Part shown: piece by piece, positions 35,352-51,137 of the stretch
Layout of the letters: each line of letters begins with the position of its first letter
Numbering within the stretch: the first letter of the stretch is position 1
Origin: Terriglobia bacterium
Lineage (GTDB): Bacteria; Acidobacteriota; Terriglobia; JAJPHL01
Length of the DNA stretch: 64,000 nucleotides
NCBI GenBank assembly: GCA_021325275.1
Contig: JAJPHL010000068.1
Location: 124,001 to 188,000, forward strand
Direction of reading: 5' to 3'
The notes under the pieces: generated by a model
The model's input: only the letters and a program-made list of their open reading frames with translations
The model's database searches: none
What the model was told of the DNA's origin: nothing
Made by a program: the position numbers and the translations under genes

Positions 35352-38300
35352 TTACTGGCAGAAAAGCGTTGCAGTTACTTTGGTAGGCGAACCGGTGAGG
35401 GCCGTGATGGCCGCGCGCATTGTGTCGCCCGCTGAGATCGAAGTGGTCGTGAAATCGCTCGTGCTGCTTGTCACCAGCAGCGTTCCGCTGCTAAGCGAAA
35501 TGCCGCTCGTGCTGATCGAATTCGACGACGCCGGCACCGCCGTGCCGGCGGCGACTTTCCAGAATTTGATGGTGACCGTTCCGGTGTCGGCGGCGATCGC
35601 CACGGAATTGCTGCTGGATCCACCGATGGTGCACGCCACAGGACTAGTCAAATACGAGAGAGGATCACTGCTGGTCGTGAGCGTGGCGCCGCCGTCGTAG
35701 AACTGCCATGTGAACGCGCGAGCGTTTGACCCGTTGGCACCGGCTGGCCCCGTCGGACCTGTCGGTCCCGTCGGACCCGCGGGTCCGGTCGCACCGGCGG
35801 ACGCAACAATGCCCGGTGAGAACAGCGCTACCGCATATGTACCCGACGCGCCGTTGGTCGTGAGGACTTGTCCGATGACTTGACCGCTTCCGGGATACGA
35901 AGACCCGGCATCGTGACAATCGCCAGCGACCGAGGAGCTCGCCTGGACGTAGTCGCCGGCGATCGTGCTGCCATCAAATGCGCAGGACGCGCGGCCCTGT
36001 TGCGCGATCTGAGCGTTTCCGCTCGTGCCGGCACCGCCTACGACGATGCCGACGATGCCGCTGGTTGTAGCCGTGCTTGTTTTGATCGCGACGCTTGTTG
36101 CTCCGTTCAGTCTCGCCAGTTGATTCGCGCCCGTACCTGTCGTTGTGTCGTTGGCGATTTCTACAACCGAAGCATTGCTGCCGAAATCGAGGTTGGCGCC
36201 CAGCGCGCCACTGATCGTAGGGGAAGCGATCGTCGGTGTTGTGATCGTTGGCGACGTCGCCAGAACGACGCCTCCGCTGCCGGTTGTGCCGTTGGATAGA
36301 TTCGCAGCGCTCGGTTGCGAGCAATTCGCGTTGCCGCCGGCGGCGATTCCCGTTGCGAACTGATTTGCAGAGCATTGCGACGGCGTGGCGGCGAGGGCCG
36401 TTGCCGTTCCCGCGTTTCCGCTGATGTTTCCGCTGACGTTCGCGCCCGGAACCGCGCCTGCTTGCAACGTACCAGTGATATCGACGCGCCACAAATCCGC
36501 GTTACCTGCGGCATTTTGGAAGTGCTCGAGGTTTCCCGTCGGCGATGTATCGGTCTTGCGCTTACCCGCGATGGTGTCATCGCCGTTCGCGTTTTGATTC
36601 ACAGTCAAATCGGTGATCGTTGGCGCGCCGGAAAGCGTAATGGAGCCGCTTCCCGTGGTGCCGTTCGAAAGATCCGAGGCCCCCGCCTGCGCGCCGCCCG
36701 TGACTTGCCCCTTGGCGTTATAAGTGATCTTCGTATTTGAGCCGGCTGTGACGATGCTCGCGAGAGTTGTTGTCAGTGATCCGGCCGTCGTCGTGATGTC
36801 GCCCGTGAGGGCCGGGAACTGTGCTGCGCCGAGCGTGCCGCCGATGTCGCTGAATTGCGCCTGCGCTCCAGCCGTGACCAGACCCTTCGCGTTGTACGTG
36901 ATCTTGGTATTTGTCCCGGCCGTGACCACGTTTGCGAGGGTTGTGGTCAGTGCGCCGGCCGTCGTCGTGATGTCGCCAATGAGAGCGGGGAACTGGGCTG
37001 CACCGAGCACGCTGCCCGACGTGAGACCCGCGTAGCCACTCGCGGCATTCTTGTTGCTCTGAATCTCGACCACCTGGGTAGCCGGCGAGCCAGAGTTGTC
37101 GCGATACTTGAGCGATCCTGCATTCACCCACACTTGTCCGTTTGTCGGAGATCCTGGATCGGAGGACTTCGGCAGAATCACGCCCGCCGAGCTGAAATCC
37201 TGCGTTCCCGACGAATACGTATTGCTTTGATTGTTGTAGACGACTGTGGACGGCAATTGTCCGGTTGTCGCGGTGCCACTCAGATTCGAGAACGCCGGTT
37301 GCGCGCACGTCGGCGCCGCGTTGTCGTTCGCCGCTGTGACCCATTGATTCGTGTTGCAGGCCCCGGCTCCGCCGGCTGCTACGCCCGAGTACGTCAAGTC
37401 TGTTCCGTTGCTTCGCAGGTATCTTCCGATGCCTCCCAGCGCGAGCAGGCTCCAGGTCGGCGACGCTCCTTGTCCAACAATGATCGCGCCGCGCGAAACC
37501 GACCCGGGAGTTGTGTCGCCGTGCGTCGCGGAGAGCAAATTGTGGGGAGTCACCGCTGGCAATGATTGATTGATCCAATCGGTTCCACTCCAGGTGAGTA
37601 CCTGTCCGGCGGATGGCGCGCTGATCGTGCTTTGCAACGCCGTAGCGCCTTGTCCGGATGTGCTCGTGTATGTCGTGAGATCAGTCGCGGCCCAAACCTT
37701 TTGCCCTTGAGAAGTGACCAACTTTCCGCTCGACGTAAGGCCAGCGTAACCGCTGGCCACATTCTTGTTGGATTGCACTTCGCACGTCGGACAAGCGACC
37801 GTGGTGCCGGTCTCGAGGAGAGGCGCGCTGAACGTCAGAACGTTCTGTTTGCCCGAAAACGAAAGATAGTCCGCGTTGCCCAACAATCCTGCTGTCACGC
37901 CGCCCGATGATGCCAAAGGGATATTCAACGTGCCCGTGGCGCTCCAGTTCGGAGCGGTGCCGGAGGCGCCGGGTGTGGTTGCGAGCGCTAACGTTCCGGT
38001 CGCATTCGGCACGGTGACCGTTTGGTTTGCCGTCAGCCCCGAGGCGTCGAAGGAAACAAGGAACCCGGTTTGGCCGCTTCCGAAGCGCATCACACCGGTA
38101 TTCTTGATTCCTGCAAAAATCGGCGGTGGCGGATTCGATTCGATCACGTTGGTGCCCGACAACTGCCATTCCGCCGGCGCGAAATTCCCACCCGTGCCGA
38201 CGATGCCGCTGCTGGGAACAACCCGCTGGTGGATGTACCGGCGATCGGAAGAAATGCCGTTAAATGTTTCGAACGCATAACCAATGCTGAACGAAGGAGC

Positions 38301-40799
38301 GTTCGCGCTCACCGTCGCCGAAGCAGTCGAGAACAGGCCGAGTTCTCCAGAGGGAACCGCGGAAACCGCCATGCTCAACAGGGGGCGGTTCAAAACGTCG
38401 ACGTAAAAGTCGATGGCGTTGTCACCGTTGTAATATGCGCTATTCAGCACGTTGCGCCACTCAAAGGAAGTGGCCGCAGAGGACGTGGTGTTCTGCAGGC
38501 GAATCTTAGGCTGGAAGAACTGAGATCCCACGGTGAGGTTCCCTTGCAATGAGGCGGTGGTTCCCATAAGGTTTAGCTGGGCAAAGCTCGGTGCGATCGT
38601 GGAGGCCTGCAGGGTGAGGCCGCCACTATTGTAATCGCCAAAAATTGCTGCCCCGTTCACTCCGCCCACGAAGGCGATCTTCTTGGTGTCAGCTTCCGAC
38701 TGAGAGGTCAATTGAATGCCGATGCCGCTAGAGGACGGACCGGTGATCGCCAATCCCGTTGTCGTATTTGCTGCCACCGCCACGCCGTAGGTGAACCCGT
38801 CATTGTTGGTAGTCATCTGTTCGAACACATTGAGCCCCGCGTAGAGTGTCTGGGCCCCGCTATTTACGGCGTTATAAATTCCGGCCGAGTCGACTCCGGG
38901 CATATACCATCCAACCCGCATGAGCTCGCCCGCAACAACCCCATTGGCCGACATCGCGTTTTCAACTGTGTCGCCTACATTCCAAGTGAAGGTGTTGGTT
39001 TCAAGGACCACTTGGCGGGAATTCGCGCCGAACGCAGGCATATTCAGGATGCGAGCACAGGGACGAATCGTGTAACTGCCATTTCCTGGGCCGTTTCCTT
39101 CATACACCTTTAGACCGGCGGCATTTAGGTGCGAATAGCCGATGTCGGTTACGGAAAAGACTTGCGTGATTGGATACCATGCGATCAACGGAGAACTCGG
39201 AGAGAAGGGAGCGCCTGTGTAGTTATCCGCGGCAAAAGAGACGCATCCTGGAAGCACGCTGTCACCGCCAACCATGTTGCTACTCCAATTGGTGCTCGAT
39301 CCAAGAAAAGCTAGGCCAGAAACCCTGCTGATCGTGCCTTGGTTGTAGGCAGGCTGGGAATTGTTCACCATCCAGCGCAATTGGCCCATTCCGTAGAGGT
39401 CGGACAGAGTCAACACCGTGGCCGGCGTGACAGTATCTCCCAGAATATGGTTCTTCAGGAAAATGCCAGTGATGACGCCGGTCGATACAGACGTCAACTG
39501 GACAGCTTCGAGCTTTTGATCTGTCTCATATGCAGCCCCGCGTCCCAACACAACCCAGTCTCCAACGTTGCACCCGGTCGTGGACGCGACCGTTACCTGC
39601 TGTGCGGCTATGTTTTTTGTGATTGCCTGCGTCGTTGTCGTGTTGCATGTCGTTTGAGGAGAATTTGACACGATCGTTGCTGTAACTGGGAAATTGCCTT
39701 GAAGAAGATTCATCGAGCGAAACGCGGTTCCCTCGTCTCCCGAGGCGTTCAGCCCGCCGAACATTGTGAGCTGATCGGTACTTGTGAAGCAATCACCCAT
39801 TCCCCAGCAGTTTGTGGTGGAACCGATGTTGACCCGTTGTCCCGCTCCTCTGTGATTCGCCACTGCGTTGATGCTGAGGAATGTCTTCTTTGCAGCCTGA
39901 TCCCCGTCATTTTGGCCGTTCAGCGAGGTCATGTTGACTTGGAAACCGGTTTCGTTGCTGAAATTTGGGTTTGTATTGGTTGCGTCGGTCGTGAAGTTTA
40001 GTTGCTGGGCGATCGCGTTATTCGGATCCGCAGCCACATTGCCATTGTTAGAGGTCAGGTTGAGTCCCGTACTGTTTAATACCGTCGTCAAGCTCTGAGA
40101 ACCGGCAGCGGATTGATTCTGATACAGTCCGGCAAACGGCTGCGATGTCGATCCCAGTTGGACACTGCCACCTGAGGCCAGCAAGCTCCCCGTCATCGTG
40201 TCGCCCGCTTTCGACACTCTCGTGGGATCGCTGCCTCCCAGCGCATTAAACGTCAATGTTTGATCGGTGCAGTTGATGGCGTGCGACGAAGTATTCCAAT
40301 AGCACTGGCCTTCCGCTGTCGCCACAGGCGCCGTCGATTGTCGCCAAACGCCCAACACCGCCTGTAGACCGTTTCCCAGTGTGAGCTGCTGTTCGCCGAA
40401 CGTTGTTGTTGGGGTCGGCACCGGCGTCGTACGGACTTGCGTCAGCGTAACGGGTCCGTTTTGCGGAACGGTCCAATACTCGGTGTAGGTCACCGAGTTT
40501 TGCAGGAAATACGTCACCGTGTAGCTGGTACCGGCGGGCGTCGCGCCGATCGTCGGCACCAACTGCACGCTGACGGACCCGTTCGAGATCGTGATCGTCG
40601 TGGAGCCTTGCGCGATCGGGAAATTGTCCTGCGACGTGAAGGCGGGCCAGGAGATCGTCGCCGTACCTGAAGCGAGAGTCCCCGTGGCTTCATAGAGCGT
40701 GTCGGAAATCTGCGTCTTCCTTTGAGCCCAACAGGTGATCGATCCGCCGATGAGCAGAGTGAGAAGACCCACGGCGGTCAGAATGTGCGTTCGCTTCAT
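35352..40799 (-). CDS. Giant collagen-like fibre protein with signal peptide
   Basis: 1815 residues. N-terminal signal peptide (HILTAVGLLTLLIGGSITCWA), then the ~95-residue beta domain shared with the small gene downstream, a KAGDTMTGSLL motif typical of phage tail fibres, long Ser/Thr/Asn/Gly-rich beta-repeat regions, and two ~58-residue near-identical tandem units (AAQFPAL.GDITTTAG .. NTKITYNAKG) near 36685-37032. Close to the C-terminus is a (GPT)n collagen-like tract (GPTGPTGPTGPAG) and a ~120-residue terminal domain. The presence of a Sec signal on a tail-fibre-like gene is unusual. Receptor binding is inferred. Confidence 0.78.
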   Translation of the reverse strand: MKRTHILTAVGLLTLLIGGSITCWAQRKTQISDTLYEATGTLASGTATISWPAFTSQDNFPIAQGSTTITISNGSVSVQLVPTIGATPAGTSYTVTYFLQNSVTYTEYWTVPQNGPVTLTQVRTTPVPTPTTTFGEQQLTLGNGLQAVLGVWRQSTAPVATAEGQCYWNTSSHAINCTDQTLTFNALGGSDPTRVSKAGDTMTGSLLASGGSVQLGSTSQPFAGLYQNQSAAGSQSLTTVLNSTGLNLTSNNGNVAADPNNAIAQQLNFTTDATNTNPNFSNETGFQVNMTSLNGQNDGDQAAKKTFLSINAVANHRGAGQRVNIGSTTNCWGMGDCFTSTDQLTMFGGLNASGDEGTAFRSMNLLQGNFPVTATIVSNSPQTTCNTTTTQAITKNIAAQQVTVASTTGCNVGDWVVLGRGAAYETDQKLEAVQLTSVSTGVITGIFLKNHILGDTVTPATVLTLSDLYGMGQLRWMVNNSQPAYNQGTISRVSGLAFLGSSTNWSSNMVGGDSVLPGCVSFAADNYTGAPFSPSSPLIAWYPITQVFSVTDIGYSHLNAAGLKVYEGNGPGNGSYTIRPCARILNMPAFGANSRQVVLETNTFTWNVGDTVENAMSANGVVAGELMRVGWYMPGVDSAGIYNAVNSGAQTLYAGLNVFEQMTTNNDGFTYGVAVAANTTTGLAITGPSSSGIGIQLTSQSEADTKKIAFVGGVNGAAIFGDYNSGGLTLQASTIAPSFAQLNLMGTTASLQGNLTVGSQFFQPKIRLQNTTSSAATSFEWRNVLNSAYYNGDNAIDFYVDVLNRPLLSMAVSAVPSGELGLFSTASATVSANAPSFSIGYAFETFNGISSDRRYIHQRVVPSSGIVGTGGNFAPAEWQLSGTNVIESNPPPPIFAGIKNTGVMRFGSGQTGFLVSFDASGLTANQTVTVPNATGTLALATTPGASGTAPNWSATGTLNIPLASSGGVTAGLLGNADYLSFSGKQNVLTFSAPLLETGTTVACPTCEVQSNKNVASGYAGLTSSGKLVTSQGQKVWAATDLTTYTSTSGQGATALQSTISAPSAGQVLTWSGTDWINQSLPAVTPHNLLSATHGDTTPGSVSRGAIIVGQGASPTWSLLALGGIGRYLRSNGTDLTYSGVAAGGAGACNTNQWVTAANDNAAPTCAQPAFSNLSGTATTGQLPSTVVYNNQSNTYSSGTQDFSSAGVILPKSSDPGSPTNGQVWVNAGSLKYRDNSGSPATQVVEIQSNKNAASGYAGLTSGSVLGAAQFPALIGDITTTAGALTTTLANVVTAGTNTKITYNAKGLVTAGAQAQFSDIGGTLGAAQFPALTGDITTTAGSLTTTLASIVTAGSNTKITYNAKGQVTGGAQAGASDLSNGTTGSGSITLSGAPTITDLTVNQNANGDDTIAGKRKTDTSPTGNLEHFQNAAGNADLWRVDITGTLQAGAVPGANVSGNISGNAGTATALAATPSQCSANQFATGIAAGGNANCSQPSAANLSNGTTGSGGVVLATSPTITTPTIASPTISGALGANLDFGSNASVVEIANDTTTGTGANQLARLNGATSVAIKTSTATTSGIVGIVVGGAGTSGNAQIAQQGRASCAFDGSTIAGDYVQASSSVAGDCHDAGSSYPGSGQVIGQVLTTNGASGTYAVALFSPGIVASAGATGPAGPTGPTGPTGPAGANGSNARAFTWQFYDGGATLTTSSDPLSYLTSPVACTIGGSSSNSVAIAADTGTVTIKFWKVAAGTAVPASSNSISTSGISLSSGTLLVTSSTSDFTTTSISAGDTMRAAITALTGSPTKVTATLFCQ
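36685..37032 (-). repeat. 174-bp tandem repeat inside the fibre gene
   Basis: Two copies of a 58-codon unit encoding AAQFPAL-GDITTTAG-LTTTLA-VTAG-NTKITYNAKG; the period of 174 bp is seen from GTTATAAGTGATCTTCG at 36717 and GTTGTACGTGATCTTGG at 36891. Such units form beta-solenoid shafts and can vary in number. Confidence 0.7.
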
Positions 40800-41267: not shown

Positions 41268-44200
41268 TCAGGAAACAAACTGCGCCCGTCGCACTTCGCC
41301 AGTGAGGGGCAGTGGCAGTGCGAAGAGGCAGAACTCGTCGTAAGCCCAAAGGCTAATTCCGCCAAGATGGGCGCGGCCCGCGAGCGTCAACACGCGTTGC
41401 CACGGCCACGGGTATCCGAAGACGCCGACAATGTGTCGCGATTGGGCGGAAGAAAAGCCTTGCTGGCTCACTGGAAACTGAATCGCCGCCGTAGCGTTGC
41501 TCATCGCTCCGCTACTGGTGTAGCCAAACGCTTCCGCACGGAAGGAGGAGAACTGGCTCGGCGACCAACTGGTCGGCAAATTCACAAAGTAGTTCAACTG
41601 TCGCGTGGCCGGATCGTTGACGTCCATCGGCCACAACACTTCAAACTGTGCGCTCGGATACGACGCCAGCACATACGATTGGATCGCGCTTACATGCGCA
41701 TCGAGTTGTCCGCGGATGAACGCGGCGTCCGTGGGCCACGCGCTGGGATTGTCGTTGTTCGTAAGAAAAACATGTAGCGCCCGGCCGTTGGCAGCGAGAA
41801 ACTGCGACGTCGTGTAGCTGTCGTAGTATGACATGCCCGATGCATTCGGCGTGTACCACCATTGAACTTCGCCGAATTGCAGCGCAGGGGTGCTGCCCGC
41901 CGCAGTCATGAGCTGCGCGGTCTCGAGATAAACCTGTTTCCAATAGCTCTGTGTTTCAGGACGGAACGCTGTTTGGATGCTGTTGTTCGACGTGAGCACC
42001 GAAGTTCCATCCGGATACTGCTGTGCGAAGACCGCCGGCGGATTGATCAGTTCCGTGGAGTACGAAAAAATCGTGCTCATGCCGAGGCCGCTCAATGTGC
42101 TAGCGAAATCCTGATGCCAGTCGCGCGTACCGCGGTTGAGAGCGGTCGCGAACGCAGGGTCGACTTGCCAAGTGCCGACGACTCCCCCTGTCAAACTGCC
42201 GCTGACGCCAATCGTCTCGGTGCCGGCTCCGATTACCTGCACGCTCGTGGCAAGGCTAAAGCTTGGATCGCGCGCCGTGACCGTGAGCACCGTGCCAGAG
42301 TAAGTCGCGAAAATGGCGCTGAAGTTCTCGTTGATCTCAAACGCGAGCGCCTGCACGATGGTGTCGAGCGTGTCACCAATCTGAACGAAATGCCCTGCGG
42401 CCGAAGAGTCGAAGTTCAAGAAGATCTGATCGTTCGGCGTTGCCGTTCCCGAGAACGTGTACACAATTTGTGGAAATGAGCCGCCGCTTCTCGAACGCTC
42501 ACAAAACTGGCCGATTCCGACGAAGTGATCGACTTGGCCTTGAACGCCGAGCTGGTGTATTCCCCATGCCAGCCGTTGCGGCGAGAGCGACAACGCCGCC
42601 GTATCGAAGTCCGTGGCGAATCCTACTTGGCTTGTCGTCACGGCAGGATCGTTCCAATCGCCGGGTGCGACAGCCTCGATGAAATCGATGTTGCAGTTCC
42701 ATCCGCTCGACGCCGCATTCTTTGCGCCGCTGACCGTGACACGCACAGTGTGCAATCCCGGTGCGATGCCGGCGGCGAGTTTTACAAGTGCGCGATAGGA
42801 ATCGTAGGCGCCGCCGTAGAGATCCTGGTTGGGTTGGCTCACTCCGTCGAGTGTCACCAACGCGATCCCGCTGAAGTTGTCCTGATAGACTCCGGCGTAA
42901 AGATCGTGCGTGTACGGCGAGTGATAAGTCAGTTGCAGGTAGTCGCCGCCGGTGGCAGAAGCGGAATAGCCGCCTGCCGAGTATTGACCGTCGACGCGCG
43001 TCCAGTTCCCGGACCGCACCACATCGCCGGAATCGTCTTCGTAACGCACTCCGGGATTTGCTCGTTTGAGAAGCGTCGACCCGGAACCGGTGATGCTCCA
43101 GTTCGTGAACTGGGCCGAGAATTCCTGAAACGCCATCGCTTGCGAATCCGGCAGTGGCGGCGAGAACAGCCACTGCATCTTGCGGATCGGCGACGCTGGG
43201 ACGGTTCGTCCCGTGATGTCGGTGATCGATCCGAACGGCAACGTGACTTGCCATGTCGGCGTATGACCGCCAGAGCACTGGAAAACAGATGGCGACCACG
43301 TTTCAGTGGGCGTCGCTTGACCGCCGCCCGTCATATTCGTGCTCGTCGTCGGAGAAATAGTTGTTCCGCCTGTCGCCGCGGCTTGGTACGCGATGCGATT
43401 CCCAACGGTGCCGCCTTGCCACGACACCAAGAGAATCGTTGACGTGCCGCCCGATCCTGGCCAGAAAGCCGCCACACCGGTTGTAGTGTTATTCCCGCTG
43501 TTTGCGTTGATCGCGTTGGCGAGTTGCTGCGAGATCGTACCGGTTCCGTCGCCTGGTTGTACCGTGTAGCTGCTTGTGAACGACGTGCCGCTCGCCAGCG
43601 TTATCGTCACCGACGCCTGATCGCCCGAGACCGGTGTTCCGCCGATCGTCACGCCGCCTGTTGCCTGGATCAAGTGGCCGACCGTCAGCGTGTATCCACG
43701 AATCAGGTTCGCGTCGTTGCCTTTCCGAAGCGTGGTGAGGATCAAATCGCCGGCGCCACTGCCCGCGGCCGCGGTCATGCTCGTGGAACCGGAGTTAATC
43801 TGGCTCACCAGCGACGCCACGGCGAGCGCGGGCGATTCACCGTTTGTCACAATTGTGTAGCTATACGCCTCGCCGAAAAACAACACCTTCACGGCGTCGT
43901 TGGCTGTCATCGTTCCGCCGAGCGTGACGGTCGCCGATGCCGGTCGGTGTGAGTCGCCGGTGACCGGCGTCGCGTAGTTCTGTAGCGCCACTTGATACAA
44001 CGACTCCGGCGTTCCTGCGTAAACGTTGAGATACGGGAAGCCCGTGTATGGAAAGATCGCCGAGGCGATGTCGGCCAATCCCGAGTGGGCGTAGTCGTAG
44101 CTCAGCGTTAATCCCGTGAAGTCGCCGTTGGGCAGATAGCGGAGCTGGGGGTGTTCGAAATCATTGTCGCGATTCCACTCCAAGATCACGTTGTCGGTGA

Positions 44201-44333
44201 GCGCGTTGAAGCGGCCGCTCAGTTCGAAACCTGTCGGCGTCGCATGATGAATCGTCCCAATCGCGCTCTGCGGCGAAAAGGACGCCACGTACAGGGTCCG
44301 ATCGGGCTGCATCTTGGTGATGGTTTCCGGCAT
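41268..44333 (-). CDS. Large tail protein, possible TIM-barrel hydrolase domain
   Basis: 1021 residues, no signal peptide. N-terminal ~350 residues contain repeated beta modules (VTITLASGT, TVQPGDGTGTISQQLANAIN; a HEAT-free tail-fibre style) then carbohydrate-binding-like segments (GNWTRVDGQYSAGGYSASATGGD ... FIEAVAPG). From about 760 to the end, TRDWHQDFASTLSGLG, SYWKQVYLETAQLM, ALQFGEVQWWY and EVLWPMDVND read like a glycoside-hydrolase TIM barrel. It could degrade host polysaccharide or peptidoglycan, which would compensate for the missing endolysin. Confidence for domain identity is modest. Confidence 0.6.
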   Translation of the reverse strand: MPETITKMQPDRTLYVASFSPQSAIGTIHHATPTGFELSGRFNALTDNVILEWNRDNDFEHPQLRYLPNGDFTGLTLSYDYAHSGLADIASAIFPYTGFPYLNVYAGTPESLYQVALQNYATPVTGDSHRPASATVTLGGTMTANDAVKVLFFGEAYSYTIVTNGESPALAVASLVSQINSGSTSMTAAAGSGAGDLILTTLRKGNDANLIRGYTLTVGHLIQATGGVTIGGTPVSGDQASVTITLASGTSFTSSYTVQPGDGTGTISQQLANAINANSGNNTTTGVAAFWPGSGGTSTILLVSWQGGTVGNRIAYQAAATGGTTISPTTSTNMTGGGQATPTETWSPSVFQCSGGHTPTWQVTLPFGSITDITGRTVPASPIRKMQWLFSPPLPDSQAMAFQEFSAQFTNWSITGSGSTLLKRANPGVRYEDDSGDVVRSGNWTRVDGQYSAGGYSASATGGDYLQLTYHSPYTHDLYAGVYQDNFSGIALVTLDGVSQPNQDLYGGAYDSYRALVKLAAGIAPGLHTVRVTVSGAKNAASSGWNCNIDFIEAVAPGDWNDPAVTTSQVGFATDFDTAALSLSPQRLAWGIHQLGVQGQVDHFVGIGQFCERSRSGGSFPQIVYTFSGTATPNDQIFLNFDSSAAGHFVQIGDTLDTIVQALAFEINENFSAIFATYSGTVLTVTARDPSFSLATSVQVIGAGTETIGVSGSLTGGVVGTWQVDPAFATALNRGTRDWHQDFASTLSGLGMSTIFSYSTELINPPAVFAQQYPDGTSVLTSNNSIQTAFRPETQSYWKQVYLETAQLMTAAGSTPALQFGEVQWWYTPNASGMSYYDSYTTSQFLAANGRALHVFLTNNDNPSAWPTDAAFIRGQLDAHVSAIQSYVLASYPSAQFEVLWPMDVNDPATRQLNYFVNLPTSWSPSQFSSFRAEAFGYTSSGAMSNATAAIQFPVSQQGFSSAQSRHIVGVFGYPWPWQRVLTLAGRAHLGGISLWAYDEFCLFALPLPLTGEVRRAQFVS

Positions 44334-44339
44334 ATCGCG

Positions 44340-47300
44340 CTACAGTCGAATCACTAGCGTCAGATCCTGGCCTGCGGTTGAACTTCCGATTCCGGTCAGG
44401 TCGAAAGTGAGCAGGTCGCCTTCATTCAGCGTGGGCAACGACGCGCCGCTCACGCTCGGAGTCGATACGGTCTGTCCGTCTGGAATAGTGAGTGTGGCGT
44501 ACGGCGAACCGTTCCGTCTCACCAAGATCGTGACCGCCGCACCGGACGGCGCCGCCCCCACGATCGCGTAGATGTCGCGAACGCTTCCAGTCGTATGCAC
44601 GGAAAGCGGCGCCATCACGTCGGACTCCACGAACAACACGCCGTTTACCTGAACGCTAAACTGGCCGCCTTGGTTTGTTCGCAGTCCTTGCAACGCGCCG
44701 CTCTCACTACCGTCGGGCGATGCGATCAAGAAGTTGGTCACCGCCGTCGGGCTATTCCCGAAGGTATTGGTTACCAGTAATTCCACCGACGCGATTCGCG
44801 CGCACGGCATCGATTCGACCGCACTCCACAGCGCGGCCGCCGAAGAACTGAGGAAGTTCAGAGCGAACGGGTACACGAAAATCTTGCTCGTTTGCAGAAA
44901 TACCACAGCGGCACTTGAATGGCCGCTCGCGGTGGAGCCCATGCGGCCTCGTTGCACGGTCCACGTAGTTCCACTAATCGCTTGGATAGTCACCGTCTCC
45001 ATGTCGATCGCCACCATGCTGCCCACAGTGAAGCCCGTCGACGACGCAACCTGAATCGTTGTAGCGGACGACGACACGGCCGCCGCTAGAGTCGTCGAAG
45101 TGGTGCTCGACTCGTCGATATAGTTCACCGTGTATGTGCACGACGTGATCCCGTTGGTGTTTGTCAGACTCGTGAACGCTGGGAGTTGAAAAACAATCGT
45201 CCCATTTCGCGGCGCACTCACGCCGAGCGTTGGAAGCGGCGGAAGTCCCGTATCGCCGACGATGGGTCCCGCTCCGCCGATGGTCCAGGCCGTTACTGCC
45301 GCCAAGCCGTTGGGCGATTCGTTGTTCTGCCCGTCGGCAGCCACGCCTTGTACCAGCACCACGCGGCTGTTTTGGTTGGGCACAATGAACTGTGCGGGAC
45401 TCGATTGCGCCGAGCATCCCGGACGCCACGCGGGGTCCTCCACAAGAAACACGCTTGTGCCGTCGGGCGGAATCGGCCAGTTCGGCGTCACGGAAAGCGT
45501 GGTGGCGCTGTTGGACGCGATCGTGGCGATTTGACCGGCGCCCGTGCCGCTCCAGATTCGCACCAGGAATCCTTGATATTGATTCGTCGTTAGGCTGAGG
45601 CTCGACGCGCCGATCTGCGACGGTCCGAAGATTGTGGCTCTGATTGGTGCGAGCTGCTGGTACTTCCAATAGAAGTTGGCATGATCGAAGAACGCATCGG
45701 GCTGCGGTACGTCCTGAACTGTGGCGCCGCCGTTATCGTTGTACGAAGTCGCGGGCGGGACTCCACTGGCGATCCGAAACAGCTTCAGCGGTGTCGAGCC
45801 GCGGTAGACGTTGAAGGACGCCGCGTTCGATCCCAACTCGACGCCTGTGAGCGTGACCGTGTTGGTATTGCTTCCGCTGGGAATCGCCGCACTCACGGCG
45901 AACGATGGCGGCGACTCCAGTCCCGACGCATCGGTAGCCGTGAGCGCGTAAAACAGCGTCTCGTTGCCTGGAAGCGTTCCACCTGTTGGCCCGACCGTCG
46001 CTGTCAAATCCACGAGCGGGGGGCCAACCAACTTCGAAAATGTCGTCGCCGGCACCGCGAAGGGCACGACCAGTTCCACGGCGGCCGATCCGTCTGACGC
46101 AATGGTTGAGGATTCCGCGATATCCCAGTCGAAATCATCGTCCGCACGTGGTTTGGTTCCTGCCAGAGGGAAGGGAGCGCGTGAAACAGAGCCAGGTTGA
46201 CCGGGGACGCCATACGGCGGAGCGAATTGTCCGTTCGAATCGCTGTACCATGCATCGTCGTGTGCTTGCGCCGTCACTTGCACAAGGCGGAAATTCTGCT
46301 GCGGCGATAGCTTGAGGATGCGGAACAGCTTGTTGACCCAACCTTCTTTCGCATAGGTAATCGAGATGATCTGTCCCACCTGTTGGCCGAGTGCCTTCAC
46401 CGTGGTCAGGAAGGTCACGAACTGGTTTCCGTCAATCGACTTGTTCAACGCGAAGGCCGCCACGCGTTCCGCTTGGTCGTAGGTCGGAATGCCATCGACG
46501 ATCAGCGTTTGCGTGACTTCCTGGCCAACGAGATCCTGGTCTTGCATGTCGTCGATGGCGAAGGAATCCTGCTGATAGCTGTTGAACGCGTCTTGAAACT
46601 CAAACGCCAGCCGATTCGGCGTGTCGGTGATTGAGCGATAGGTGACCTTGAGACTCGATGCGCCGTTAGGTTGTCGCACGATGCTCGACGAGTCGTAGCA
46701 ATACGCCGGCCATCCGCCGTTGATCGCCGCCGTGGCATTCGAGCCGTAGGGCAGTGACGGCTGCTGCGTGGCAATCGTGTTTTCCACGTTCAGGTGGAGC
46801 AATCCATCCGTGCCGTACGTAAAGAACAGGCGCGCATTGGTGCGGATTCCCAAAATCACTTCGGACGCGGGTCGCCGGTCGGGCAGCATTAAGTTGCATT
46901 GGAATCGCGGTACCGAAACCGTGGTGCCCTTGTTATCCGTCGCAGCAATCGTGGCCGCGCAATACGCCGCGGCCGCTGCAAAGCTTGGCAGGTTCATTTC
47001 CGCAGTCGTCCAACGACTCTGTTTCAGAACATCGAGCAAGATCCACGCCGGATTGTTCGTGAAACTCCACCCGAGGGAATTGCCGCTCGAGTCGAATGTC
47101 TCGACCTGCCGTCCATCGACGAGCACTTGCACATTTGGAACGCTCGACCCATTGCTAATGCTGTTGGGAACAACCACACTCAGGTAGGCCATCGAACCGT
47201 AGGGATCGCCCTGTGGGTTGCCGTTAGAATCGGTGAAGTTTAGATCGAACTCGCCGTAGATCGATCCGCTGTTCACTACGTTGTACCAACCGGACGCGTT

Positions 47301-48488
47301 CATGTTCCGTCCAGCGATAGCGGCGGGAATCTGGTAGCCGTTCACCACGACCATCCGAATGCTCTGGATTTGTCCGAGAGAGACGAGGCAGTCCATGCGC
47401 GTCAAGTTGCCGTCGTTGCGAAGGACGGTGATGATCGGCTCGATCCAACCCGTGCCGTAGACCATCGGGATCGGATCGTTGTACTGCGCGACATTCGGTT
47501 GAACCGCCGAGGGAACCATCGACGGCGAGCCGAACGGCCGGACGCTAATGGTCGGCGGCAGGAACTCCAGTCCGCCAAAGCGCCGCGTCGGGCGGCCGAC
47601 CACTGCGCCGGTGGAGTGCGACTTCTTCAATGGCGCGGAGAGCGTGTAGGTGTACGGTCCAGAGCCGGATTTGCTAACGATGGAGCATTCGTCTTGGCTC
47701 CCGCCAGAGACGCTAGGATCAAGACCGCCGCCGATGTCGATCGTTTGTCCCACGGGGCCGACATCGTTCGTAACGCTGATGCTTGTTGCACCGCTCGAAG
47801 CCGGCGCGGCGAGCGTGGAGCAAGCGTCTTGGCTGAGCATGCCGCGTTGAATGCAATCCTGACGCGTGTAGCTGCACGTTGTAAACGGAGTGCTGCCGCT
47901 TTGGAACGCACCTGATCCGCCGGCGATATCCGGCGAATAGCCGCATGGATAGAACGGCGAGTTCCGGTCGTTCACGGCGGCTGTGCGCTGCGCGACCGTT
48001 TGTGGAAAGGACCATGGACAGCGGCGCTGAATACGGAACGGCGGCATGTACACGCGCTGCATGTTCATGCTATTCACAGCCGTCACTTGTAACTCCAGGT
48101 CGGTGACTTTATCCGGCGGATTGAAGTAGCCGGTGAAGGGAATCAGCGAATCCGACGCCGGCGAATTCGTTGCCAAGCTATAAAAGAGAAATCGCGCGGT
48201 GACCGTCGCGCCTTTGAATCCCTTGATCATGTCGATTTCTGACATTTCCGAATCGGCATTCCCGAGGACCAACGTGAGGCGCGGAATCTGATCGATTCCT
48301 TGCTCGCTCATCGCCTGGATTTCGAAGAAATTGTGACGCACCACGCGCGCCTCGTACGCTGTGCCGCTGTACGTAACCGCGTGCGTGCACCAATGCGACA
48401 CTGAGCCGTCCGGAAACGTCACGTCGAACAACAGCAGCGGCGTTTCCGCCAGCGATTGCTCTTTGAGGACCGGAATCGTTGTGCCCAT
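44340..48488 (-). CDS. Tail-tip hub protein with N-terminal gpL/DUF2163-like Cys domain
   Basis: 1382 residues. Residues 1-220 resemble the lambda gpL / TIGR02218 / DUF2163 group, with four cysteines (C157, C182, C205, C212) in the RCPWSF ... PCGY ... TCSYTRQDC arrangement known in gpL to hold an Fe-S cluster. Residues ~400-800 look like a gpJ-type hub (SITYAKEGWVNKLFRILKLSP), followed by Ig/fibronectin-like modules. This is a fusion of genes that are separate in most siphoviruses. It starts with TAATG coupling to the Dit-like gene upstream. Confidence 0.75.
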   Translation of the reverse strand: MGTTIPVLKEQSLAETPLLLFDVTFPDGSVSHWCTHAVTYSGTAYEARVVRHNFFEIQAMSEQGIDQIPRLTLVLGNADSEMSEIDMIKGFKGATVTARFLFYSLATNSPASDSLIPFTGYFNPPDKVTDLELQVTAVNSMNMQRVYMPPFRIQRRCPWSFPQTVAQRTAAVNDRNSPFYPCGYSPDIAGGSGAFQSGSTPFTTCSYTRQDCIQRGMLSQDACSTLAAPASSGATSISVTNDVGPVGQTIDIGGGLDPSVSGGSQDECSIVSKSGSGPYTYTLSAPLKKSHSTGAVVGRPTRRFGGLEFLPPTISVRPFGSPSMVPSAVQPNVAQYNDPIPMVYGTGWIEPIITVLRNDGNLTRMDCLVSLGQIQSIRMVVVNGYQIPAAIAGRNMNASGWYNVVNSGSIYGEFDLNFTDSNGNPQGDPYGSMAYLSVVVPNSISNGSSVPNVQVLVDGRQVETFDSSGNSLGWSFTNNPAWILLDVLKQSRWTTAEMNLPSFAAAAAYCAATIAATDNKGTTVSVPRFQCNLMLPDRRPASEVILGIRTNARLFFTYGTDGLLHLNVENTIATQQPSLPYGSNATAAINGGWPAYCYDSSSIVRQPNGASSLKVTYRSITDTPNRLAFEFQDAFNSYQQDSFAIDDMQDQDLVGQEVTQTLIVDGIPTYDQAERVAAFALNKSIDGNQFVTFLTTVKALGQQVGQIISITYAKEGWVNKLFRILKLSPQQNFRLVQVTAQAHDDAWYSDSNGQFAPPYGVPGQPGSVSRAPFPLAGTKPRADDDFDWDIAESSTIASDGSAAVELVVPFAVPATTFSKLVGPPLVDLTATVGPTGGTLPGNETLFYALTATDASGLESPPSFAVSAAIPSGSNTNTVTLTGVELGSNAASFNVYRGSTPLKLFRIASGVPPATSYNDNGGATVQDVPQPDAFFDHANFYWKYQQLAPIRATIFGPSQIGASSLSLTTNQYQGFLVRIWSGTGAGQIATIASNSATTLSVTPNWPIPPDGTSVFLVEDPAWRPGCSAQSSPAQFIVPNQNSRVVLVQGVAADGQNNESPNGLAAVTAWTIGGAGPIVGDTGLPPLPTLGVSAPRNGTIVFQLPAFTSLTNTNGITSCTYTVNYIDESSTTSTTLAAAVSSSATTIQVASSTGFTVGSMVAIDMETVTIQAISGTTWTVQRGRMGSTASGHSSAAVVFLQTSKIFVYPFALNFLSSSAAALWSAVESMPCARIASVELLVTNTFGNSPTAVTNFLIASPDGSESGALQGLRTNQGGQFSVQVNGVLFVESDVMAPLSVHTTGSVRDIYAIVGAAPSGAAVTILVRRNGSPYATLTIPDGQTVSTPSVSGASLPTLNEGDLLTFDLTGIGSSTAGQDLTLVIRL

Positions 48489-49273
48489 TAGGCGTGCTCC
48501 ACTATGGAAACGCTGACTTGGTTTTGGCTAGGCGCAATCACGCGATGCGAGAAGTTCTGCGAATCGAAGCAACAATTTGGATGAAATCCTGAAACGGTTG
48601 TGGTTCGCGCGTACGCTCCGGGGCCGGGCGCGACGACAAGCTGCGCGCCGAAGAACTCGGCGCTGCCGCCGACCGGAAGATCGACCGACCAAACAATCTG
48701 CGATCCGGTGGCCGCGAATACGCCCGTCACGGAATACCGCTTCCACGTTCCCGTTAGCGAAAGGATTGTCGAAACGCTCTGGCTGCCGCCGTCGCTGACG
48801 CGCAACGTTACGGCCGAGCTTCCAATGAGCCAGACGGACGCAGTCAGTGTCATGCCCTGCGGATTTACCGCCAACGCCTGCGAGATCGTGTTCACTGCGC
48901 CGCTTGTATTCGTGAGCGATTGTGCGGCCGATCCTCCGAGTGGATCCGCGATTCCCGAGGCGATTGACAAACCCGAGGGCGTGGTGGCTTGCCACGGTGC
49001 TTGTGCGAAGTTCTCGCTCCACTGGAGAAGGTTGTCCAACGGATCGAGAAATGCGAAGCTGTCATACCCACCGTTGCAACTCGCATAAAAACTCTGGAGC
49101 GTGGTGGCCTCGGCGTCCGTGAGCGGCCCGAATTGCAGATTCCATCGGGACAGCGGCGTCGACTGGTCTTGCGCGCGCAGCTCCGAGTAATCCGGCATGC
49201 GGTTGACGCGCGACGTGAATCGCTCCTCGCGCGACAGCGGCAGCGTAAAGATCGTTGGGAAGATCTCAAGCAT
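48488..49273 (-). CDS. DUF2460/Dit-like distal tail protein with inserted beta-sandwich
   Basis: 261 residues. The N-terminal ~95 residues (FTSRVNRM.. LSRWNLQFGPLTDAEATTLQSFYASCNGGYDSFAFLDP) match the tail-distal module also seen in the 120-residue neighbour. Residues ~100-230 form a carbohydrate-binding-like sandwich (SLTLASVW-type), an insertion absent from the small copy. ATG start at 49273 overlaps the neighbour by eight bases; the stop is coupled to the hub start. Confidence 0.7.
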   Translation of the reverse strand: MLEIFPTIFTLPLSREERFTSRVNRMPDYSELRAQDQSTPLSRWNLQFGPLTDAEATTLQSFYASCNGGYDSFAFLDPLDNLLQWSENFAQAPWQATTPSGLSIASGIADPLGGSAAQSLTNTSGAVNTISQALAVNPQGMTLTASVWLIGSSAVTLRVSDGGSQSVSTILSLTGTWKRYSVTGVFAATGSQIVWSVDLPVGGSAEFFGAQLVVAPGPGAYARTTTVSGFHPNCCFDSQNFSHRVIAPSQNQVSVSIVEHA

Positions 49274-49628
49274 GTTCGTAGATCGTCAGCGAGGTGTTGT
49301 TCAGCGTTTCAGCGTTCTTCTGCGAATGATCGAAGACATCGTTGGAGAACGAGCAGTTCGTGTGGGTCGTTTGATCCCAGGGATCGATGAACGTAAACAC
49401 ACCGTACTGTCCCTGCTGTTGCTCGAAGAACGCTTTTAACGTCGTGATTTCGCCGGAGTCCAGCTCATTCAACGCGACGGTCCACGTTCTCTTCGGTGCG
49501 ACCGCGTCACGATACGCTTGTCGAGCAAAATTCAGGAAAGTGTACGACTCCACGGGAATCGAGGCGGCTCGCGTCAGTGGATACTGCGCCACAGCCCCGG
49601 TTCTGAGCGTTGGAAATGTTCCCGGCAT
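49266..49628 (-). CDS. DUF2460/gpM-like distal tail protein (small copy)
   Basis: 120 residues: YTFLNFARQAYRD then RTWTVALNELDSGEITTLKAFFEQQQGQYGVFTFIDPWD, the same core as residues 25-95 of the 261-residue neighbour. Likely sits between tape-measure end and hub, as lambda gpM or RcGTA gp12. The second copy next door suggests duplication followed by divergence. Confidence 0.7.
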   Translation of the reverse strand: MPGTFPTLRTGAVAQYPLTRAASIPVESYTFLNFARQAYRDAVAPKRTWTVALNELDSGEITTLKAFFEQQQGQYGVFTFIDPWDQTTHTNCSFSNDVFDHSQKNAETLNNTSLTIYEHA

Positions 49629-49634
49629 GATTAC

Positions 49635-50402
49635 CTAAAGACTCTCGCGGATCAATTGATTGATCGGGTGCAAGTTCAACATCGCGGTTCGCACGGCTGA
49701 CGCCAGCGCCGGCGCGTTATCTTGAAACGATTGCGCATCCATCGCGCTCACGTTCACGGTGATGTGTGTGGCAGACGTCGCCGGCGCGTTGCCTGAATTT
49801 GGTTCGATGCGTGCGGCGCCGTCCGCGGAAGTTCCGGCGACCGGGAATCCCGGCGCGTCGGTGACTTCGAGTGTCTGCGGAATTGGCGGGATATAGGGAT
49901 TCAGGAGTTGTCGCGGGCTTGGGCCGGAGAAAAGATCGAACAAGCCCGCCGCCAGCGCTCCGAGGCCGAGGAGACTGCCGAATCCTCCCAGCAAATTTCC
50001 GAAGATTCCAGCGCCGCCTCCACCGCCCAACAGGCTGCCCAGTCCGCCGCTTTCACCGCCGGCAGAGCCGAGCAATCCGCCGAAGCCGCTCTCGAGTGGC
50101 GACAATCGCGCTGCGGCCGTATTCGCGGTAATCGCCGACGTGTTGGCGGTCTCGGCCGCCAGGAGCGATCCCAGTGCGCGCGTCAGTTCGGCGATCGCCT
50201 GCGCAGTGGGATCCGTGGCAGATCCGCCGGAAAACGGAATGCCGTACCCACCCCTTCCGCCGCGCGATCCGCCTCCTCCGAGAAGCGAGATCACCTGGCG
50301 CGCGACTTGCAGGCCGAGCATCGTAGGATTGCTCGCGTGCAGGCGCGTGTTATAAGGACGAACCTTGACGCTGCTGTTGCGGCGGTGTCTGGAGTTAAAC
50401 AT
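49635..50402 (-). CDS. Very short tape-measure protein
   Basis: 255 residues from ATG 50402, overlapping the frameshift product stop (ATGTTTAA); an internal ATG at 50321 (MLGLQVARQV) is the alternative and gives 228 residues. Gly-rich central part (GGLGSLLGGGGGAGIFGNLLGGFGSLLG, split), then the C-terminal VNVSAMDAQSFQDNAPALASAVRTAM segment typical of tape-measure C-termini. If about 1.5 angstrom per residue holds, tail length would be only 30-40 nm, close to gene transfer agents. Confidence 0.7.
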   Translation of the reverse strand: MFNSRHRRNSSVKVRPYNTRLHASNPTMLGLQVARQVISLLGGGGSRGGRGGYGIPFSGGSATDPTAQAIAELTRALGSLLAAETANTSAITANTAAARLSPLESGFGGLLGSAGGESGGLGSLLGGGGGAGIFGNLLGGFGSLLGLGALAAGLFDLFSGPSPRQLLNPYIPPIPQTLEVTDAPGFPVAGTSADGAARIEPNSGNAPATSATHITVNVSAMDAQSFQDNAPALASAVRTAMLNLHPINQLIRESL

Positions 50403-51137
50403 TCTGGTTTTGAAGCTGTGTTTCAGTTTCGAGCAGAAGAAATGCGTCGACCTCGCGCGCCGGCCACTGCCGAAGTCCTTCGCTCGTCAGCGGAGCGCGA
50501 AGAACGCGAGCAGCCATGAATTGACTGACCCACCACTCGCTATCGCGGGTGATGTAGCTCACCGGGCACTCGTTCAGGACGACCGATTCGAGCTTGCCGT
50601 GCGGATCCCGCCATCCCCAGACGATGCGTTCGTCATCGGCGCACCAGAGTTCGGGGAAGAATCGCCGGCAATTTCGCTTGACATGGAGACCGCCGCGGAC
50701 GCATTTTCCGCACTCCCACGCATCGCGCGGTCCGGCTCCTCGCCCGCGCAGGAAGTGGAAGGCGGCTCGGAGTTTTTTCTTTCTTCGTCACTCAAGCCGG
50801 TCTCGCGGCGAACCACGGCGAGAATTTCTGCGACAAGACTCTCGGGTCCCGCCTCGATGAGCGAATCGACCGTCGCGAGTGCGCCGTCGATCTCGAGGCC
50901 TTGGATTGAATCCAACGCCCAGCGCAATTGGATGGCGTCCATCTCCGCTGAGATCAACGCTGTTTGCGCCGCGCGCTCGGCCGTGTCTTCCAAAATCGCT
51001 AATCGCGACAGCGCTTCCAGGTGATCGCGAAGGGTTCTTGCCAAGTTCACCCGCCGTTGAAATGACACGCGGCGGAGGCGATACTGTACGCCGGGAATCG
51101 CCTGCGATTCCACATCGATGGTGCTCGTGTAGTTCAT
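50395..51137 (-). CDS. Tail-assembly chaperones gpG and gpGT by -1 frameshift
   Basis: The zero-frame product (gpG-like, 187 residues) starts MNYTSTIDVESQAIPGVQY at 51137 and runs to 50574. At codons 120-122 the sequence A AAA AAC (50778-50772) is the canonical -1 slip site. After the slip the frame encodes ~125 further residues (FHFLRGRGAGP .. WECGKC .. CRRFFPELWCADDER .. WRDPHGKLES .. SEWWVSQFMAARVLRAP) ending at TAA 50397-50395, giving a ~247-residue gpGT-like fusion. The zero-frame tail after the slip is a low-complexity Ser/Glu/Pro stretch. Position between tube and tape measure is the normal one for G/GT. Confidence 0.88.
50772..50778 (-). promoter_or_regulatory. Programmed -1 ribosomal frameshift heptamer A AAA AAC
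   Basis: Reading the minus strand, GAA AGA AAA AAC in the G frame contains A AAA AAC exactly in X XXY YYZ phase. The -1 frame is open for 375 nt downstream and encodes a protein-like sequence, while the zero frame becomes low complexity. A downstream structure was not modelled. Confidence 0.85.

Follow-up and report, generated by a model that had tools for sequence, protein, structure and literature searches.

A probable G/GT-type tail assembly chaperone gene with a -1 frameshift site at A AAA AAC in an acidobacterial prophage

The 64,000-nt stretch of DNA analyzed here (the window) belongs to the 6.86-Mb genome of a bacterium of the Terriglobia. The overlapping reading frames G and T described below are surrounded by a minus-strand phage late region, with genes for terminase, portal, P22-type coat protein and further head and tail proteins (Table 1). 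In the window, G and T are flanked by a tail protein upstream and by an ORF with a weak tape-measure match downstream. Farther along, DUF2460 was matched by two neighboring ORFs (48488-49628), possibly as a result of duplication. A 1021-aa ORF at 41268-44333 matched phrog_6040 (E 9e-26) and, more weakly and in one stretch, a tail sheath (E 8e-10), while the 1815-aa ORF at 35352-40799, downstream of the tail genes, had no PHROG match.

Table 1. Features of the tail gene region around the putative frameshift site (positions in the window).
Feature	Position	Strand	Basis or remark
Tail protein upstream of G, 395 aa	51144..52331	-	phrog_290, E 5e-11; size of ~390 aa kept in relatives
G domain, probable tail assembly chaperone body, 122 residues including the AAC codon	50772..51137	-	21-47% identity to relatives; AlphaFold; fold matches
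Slippery heptamer A_AAA_AAC	50772..50778	-	Sequence and phase; in-phase conservation at 28 of 29 related places
Stem 5' arm, predicted stimulator (CCGCCTTCCAC)	50755..50765	-	6 nt past the heptamer
Stem 3' arm (GTGGGAG, bulged T, GCGG)	50708..50719	-	Pairing in the alignment and covariation
Low-complexity zero-frame tail of G past the slip site, 65 residues, ending at TGA	50574..50771	-	
T extension, -1 frame, 125 residues and TAA	50395..50772	-	Conserved; AlphaFold; Cys motif C-x2-C-x10-C, later C-P
Short tape-measure candidate, 255 aa, ATG overlapping the end of T	49635..50402	-	Position; weak PHROG tape-measure match, E 0.004
DUF2460-like tail protein, short	49266..49628	-	PF09343, E 1e-6, just under the curated cut-off
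DUF2460-like tail protein (distal tail)	48488..49273	-	PF09343, E 2e-7, over the cut-off
Tail hub or fibre protein, Phage-tail_3 domain	44340..48488	-	PF13550, E 3e-10

Read in the zero frame on the minus strand, the codons flanking the heptamer are AGA AAA AAC TCC, which places A_AAA_AAC in the exact X XXY YYZ phase claimed by the initial annotation. The zero-frame ORF extends from the ATG at 51137 to the TGA at 50576-50574 (187 aa). Upstream of the shift, only 5 codons of the -1 frame are open; after it, the frame stays open for 125 residues up to the TAA at 50397-50395. These coordinates were verified, as was the previously given distance of 171 bp between the zero-frame stop (50574) and the next ATG (50402). 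The TAA of T lies just beyond this ATG (50402-50400). The earliest ATG, GTG or TTG in the -1 frame is the GTG at 50562, 70 codons in, so that T as a whole cannot start independently. A plain annotation would miss these 171 bp, as the initial annotation foresaw, and for want of an early start codon, gene callers would overlook T in these prophages and in related uncultured phages. Taken by itself, the heptamer is weak evidence and not significant: the window contains 15 copies of AAAAAAC against 8.9 expected, a number reached in 4 of 100 shuffles. Its significance comes from conservation.

With the predicted GT fusion as a query, matches were found at one locus in species genomes, at 11 loci in viral contigs and in 16 further genomes from the same order or class, of which one holds two copies. 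At these related places, T lies in the -1 frame relative to G. Orthologues lacking the heptamer, or with a stop between the two frames, would speak against a frameshift, as the initial annotation pointed out. Among the 29 related places, found by protein similarity, 28 have an in-phase A AAA AA(C/T) at one and the same codon boundary, and at none is the -1 extension broken by a stop. Of the six peptide patterns with which the contigs were scanned, two are located at the slip site or close to it and could favor conserved sites there; the whole-protein genome search, which is free of this bias, gave the heptamer at 16 of 17 places in other genomes. Elsewhere in these genes, AAA accounts for 31% of the lysine codons (AAG being twice as common), and 24% of the arginine codons end in A. 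Under free codon choice at this usage, the probability of the observed heptamer conservation is about 1e-31 for independent rows, a value that kinship raises but leaves tiny. Given such codon usage, the invariant A6 is hard to attribute to protein conservation alone. The sole exception (L048 in G074:C156, at about 943-954) has the junction CGG GGG GAA, where a six-G run replaces the heptamer; the P-site tRNA could slip on it. The genome in question carries two copies of the gene pair with differing slip sites, A_AAA_AAC in one (L042) and the G6 run in the other.

A homopolymer at such a junction invites two further explanations. The RNA polymerase might slip on the A-run, with ribosomes then translating the altered mRNA. 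The site is indeed an A6 run, extended to A9 and A7 in two relatives (L038 and L053, respectively), but A6 is short for polymerase slippage, which moreover needs no phase, whereas A_AAA_AA(C/T) is kept in phase throughout and followed by a conserved stem at ribosomal spacing (see below). Transcriptional slippage is therefore improbable, and we infer that the ribosome slips. Homopolymers are also prone to sequencing errors, and an error or a decayed gene may let one ORF appear as two. The orthologues refute this, since the frame break and the heptamer recur at 28 of the 29 places, which come from many different assemblies and metagenomes and have protein identities of 21-47%; the chance that an artifact or decay is involved is negligible.

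The -1 extension is a real domain. Its conservation starts at the first codon after the heptamer, nine columns are invariant among 26 sequences (A4, C21, C24, R33, C35, W52, C69, P70 and A110), and it was modeled by AlphaFold with a pLDDT of 86.6. Some relatives have a GTG, TTG or ATG in the -1 frame near the junction, from which T could be translated as a separate gene by internal initiation, with no frameshift at all. Several other relatives, however, have no start codon within 120 nt, the first possible start in the window lies beyond the Cys motif, and conservation right from the first codon past the heptamer does not fit an internal start either. A separate T gene is thus very unlikely, and the frameshift remains the preferred reading. 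When 396 genomes of the phylum were searched with a profile, two distant T domains were recovered (L053 and L054), preceded by A_AAA_AAA and A_AAA_AAC, respectively. Directly after the T of L053 comes a tape-measure protein with family matches at E ~1e-26, which ties the T domain to a tape-measure neighborhood independently of the window. The comparison with gpT-like proteins that the initial annotation proposed gave no alignment, as the extension had no Pfam, PHROG, PDB or fold match. Neither G nor T could be assigned to a credible family in Pfam, PHROG or PDB, whether single proteins or the alignment of the family served as queries. Foldseek found no credible match to T among viral and PDB structures, and tblastn of the fusions of the window and of L053 against 50,697 phage records gave no match.

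The zero frame past the heptamer behaves differently from the -1 frame. In 22 of the 29 aligned rows, its stop abuts the heptamer, and in 5 more the stop is delayed by a single codon. Only the window and its nearest relative, L047 from the same order, have no stop at or near the heptamer. Between these two, the T extensions align with a score of 168, against 55 for the best of 500 shuffles. The zero-frame tails, by contrast, have no similarity beyond chance, 182 of 500 shuffles scoring as high. The stretch of the zero frame beyond the heptamer is therefore not conserved as a protein. Where the stop behind the slip site is missing, G gains a low-complexity tail of 65 (window) or 39 (L047) residues. 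The low complexity noted in the initial annotation was thus found again, and the long low-complexity tail is peculiar to the lineage of the window.

Downstream of the slip site, the alignment contains an 11-bp stem starting 5-6 nt past the heptamer, within the distance of about 5-9 nt for a stimulatory stem or pseudoknot. In its typical form, GUCGC, C and UUCCA pair with UGGAA, G, a bulged U and GCGAC. Counted without any structure prediction, 93.7% of the cells are paired, and the covariation score exceeds those of all 500 shuffles and of all slid versions. Double compensatory changes (G-C to A-U, G-C to C-G and U-A to C-G) are scattered over the tree and, by our own reading of it, would need about four events. 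Stem stability is on average higher than in synonymous recodings (mean z -0.85, s.e. 0.16, for rows that are not independent). The window's own stem, folded alone, is unexceptional against shuffles and recodings (z -0.04 and -0.7), so the claim of a stem rests on the alignment. Given the protein motifs VAFH and W(K/E)CD, several or most of the stem pairs are forced, and the stem could in part be a by-product of protein conservation. In the divergent L047, which has no Trp of the usual 3' arm, an 11-bp stem of other bases is predicted at the same place. An upstream stimulator resembling a Shine-Dalgarno sequence was unsupported, the mean z of anti-SD pairing being +0.11 relative to synonymous recodings. 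The stem is therefore best regarded as a candidate stimulator of -1 frameshifting. It and the stop abutting the slip site are absent from the initial annotation and are new here.

G itself was modeled by AlphaFold with a pLDDT of 92.7, and by its fold the model matched several phage proteins that carry an annotation as tail assembly chaperones. Each match is weak, the best named one being a protein of Arthrobacter phage Molivia (E 0.018, probability 0.99). The overlapping -1 ORF has no start of its own and is conserved as a protein, as is typical of the lambda class, and the position of the putative frameshift is conserved among the relatives at 28 of 29 places and also in L053 and L054. That the frameshift joins the G and T frames of a tail chaperone, as initially proposed, is supported by synteny, the fold of G and the tape-measure neighbor in L053. 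We put the probability that this prophage gene is a G/GT-type tail assembly chaperone with a -1 frameshift at A AAA AAC at about 0.93. Points against it are that G and T match no curated tail-chaperone family, that the tape-measure gene of the window is unusually short and weakly recognized, and that one relative has a G6 run in place of the slip site. Most ribosomes would stay in the zero frame and produce G. A minority, delayed by the stem-loop that lies 6 nt farther on, would slip back by one base on AAA AAC and yield a GT fusion of 247 residues, the stem presumably stimulating the slip. By analogy with lambda, G might coat the tape-measure protein as a chaperone, and the T domain might recruit the tail-tube subunits.

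A -1 frameshift on A_AAA_AAC is used by IS1 (insA-insB') and in other bacterial cases, where a transposase and not a phage tail gene is concerned. Proven insertion sequences with this heptamer form a listed cluster, A_AAA_AAC_1, which has no established stimulator, as opposed to the candidate stem here (PMC4066793). The g-t slip site of the haloarchaeal tailed virus HCTV-2 is A_AAA_AAC as well (PMC5009743), which makes it similar in heptamer and in the type of tail gene, albeit in an archaeal virus. It counts against the present site that, in E. coli, A_AAA_AAC reportedly shifts far less readily than A_AAA_AAG (PMC5009743). The lambda-type G/GT architecture is widely conserved in long-tailed phages (PMC5009743). 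As in lambda gpG/gpGT, the ORFs overlap, and toward the end of the first lies a -1 slip heptamer. The pair follows tail genes and directly precedes the presumed tape-measure position, and a short abundant form would be accompanied by a long, C-terminally extended one (for the function, see PMC5009743). Unlike gpG/gpGT, the proteins of the window have no detectable sequence relation to those of lambda, and T has a Cys motif and no fold match. The heptamer A_AAA_AAC, the covarying stem-loop downstream and, in most relatives, the stop abutting the slip site set the present case further apart.

Overall, this is very probably a known phage trick, and its signal is unusually well marked here, with an RNA hairpin that is conserved and a stop right behind the slip site in most relatives. 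With it, the lambda G/GT class gains a member that was not listed by sequence, and a classic case of recoding is extended to phages of Acidobacteriota with no match in the collection of phage records searched. The roughly 30 aligned cases, in which the candidate stimulator covaries, make a good natural data set for asking how the G:GT ratio depends on a stem and a neighboring stop. The odds are about even for a bolder reading, namely that these tail chaperones are a family not described before, whose heptamer, abutting stop and covarying stem 5-6 nt downstream form one compact signal. In such a family, the stem, lying inside the T codons, would appear to shape the residues of T (changes between Val and Ala are coupled to those between Asp and Gly, and between Val and Leu to those between Asp and Glu), and the cysteine-rich T, possibly binding zinc, would have a new fold.

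After T, most relatives with enough sequence have an ORF of 170-280 aa. These ORFs, which are poorly conserved, are similarly short to the 255-aa tape-measure candidate of the window, which points either to a very short tail or to a protein of a different kind.
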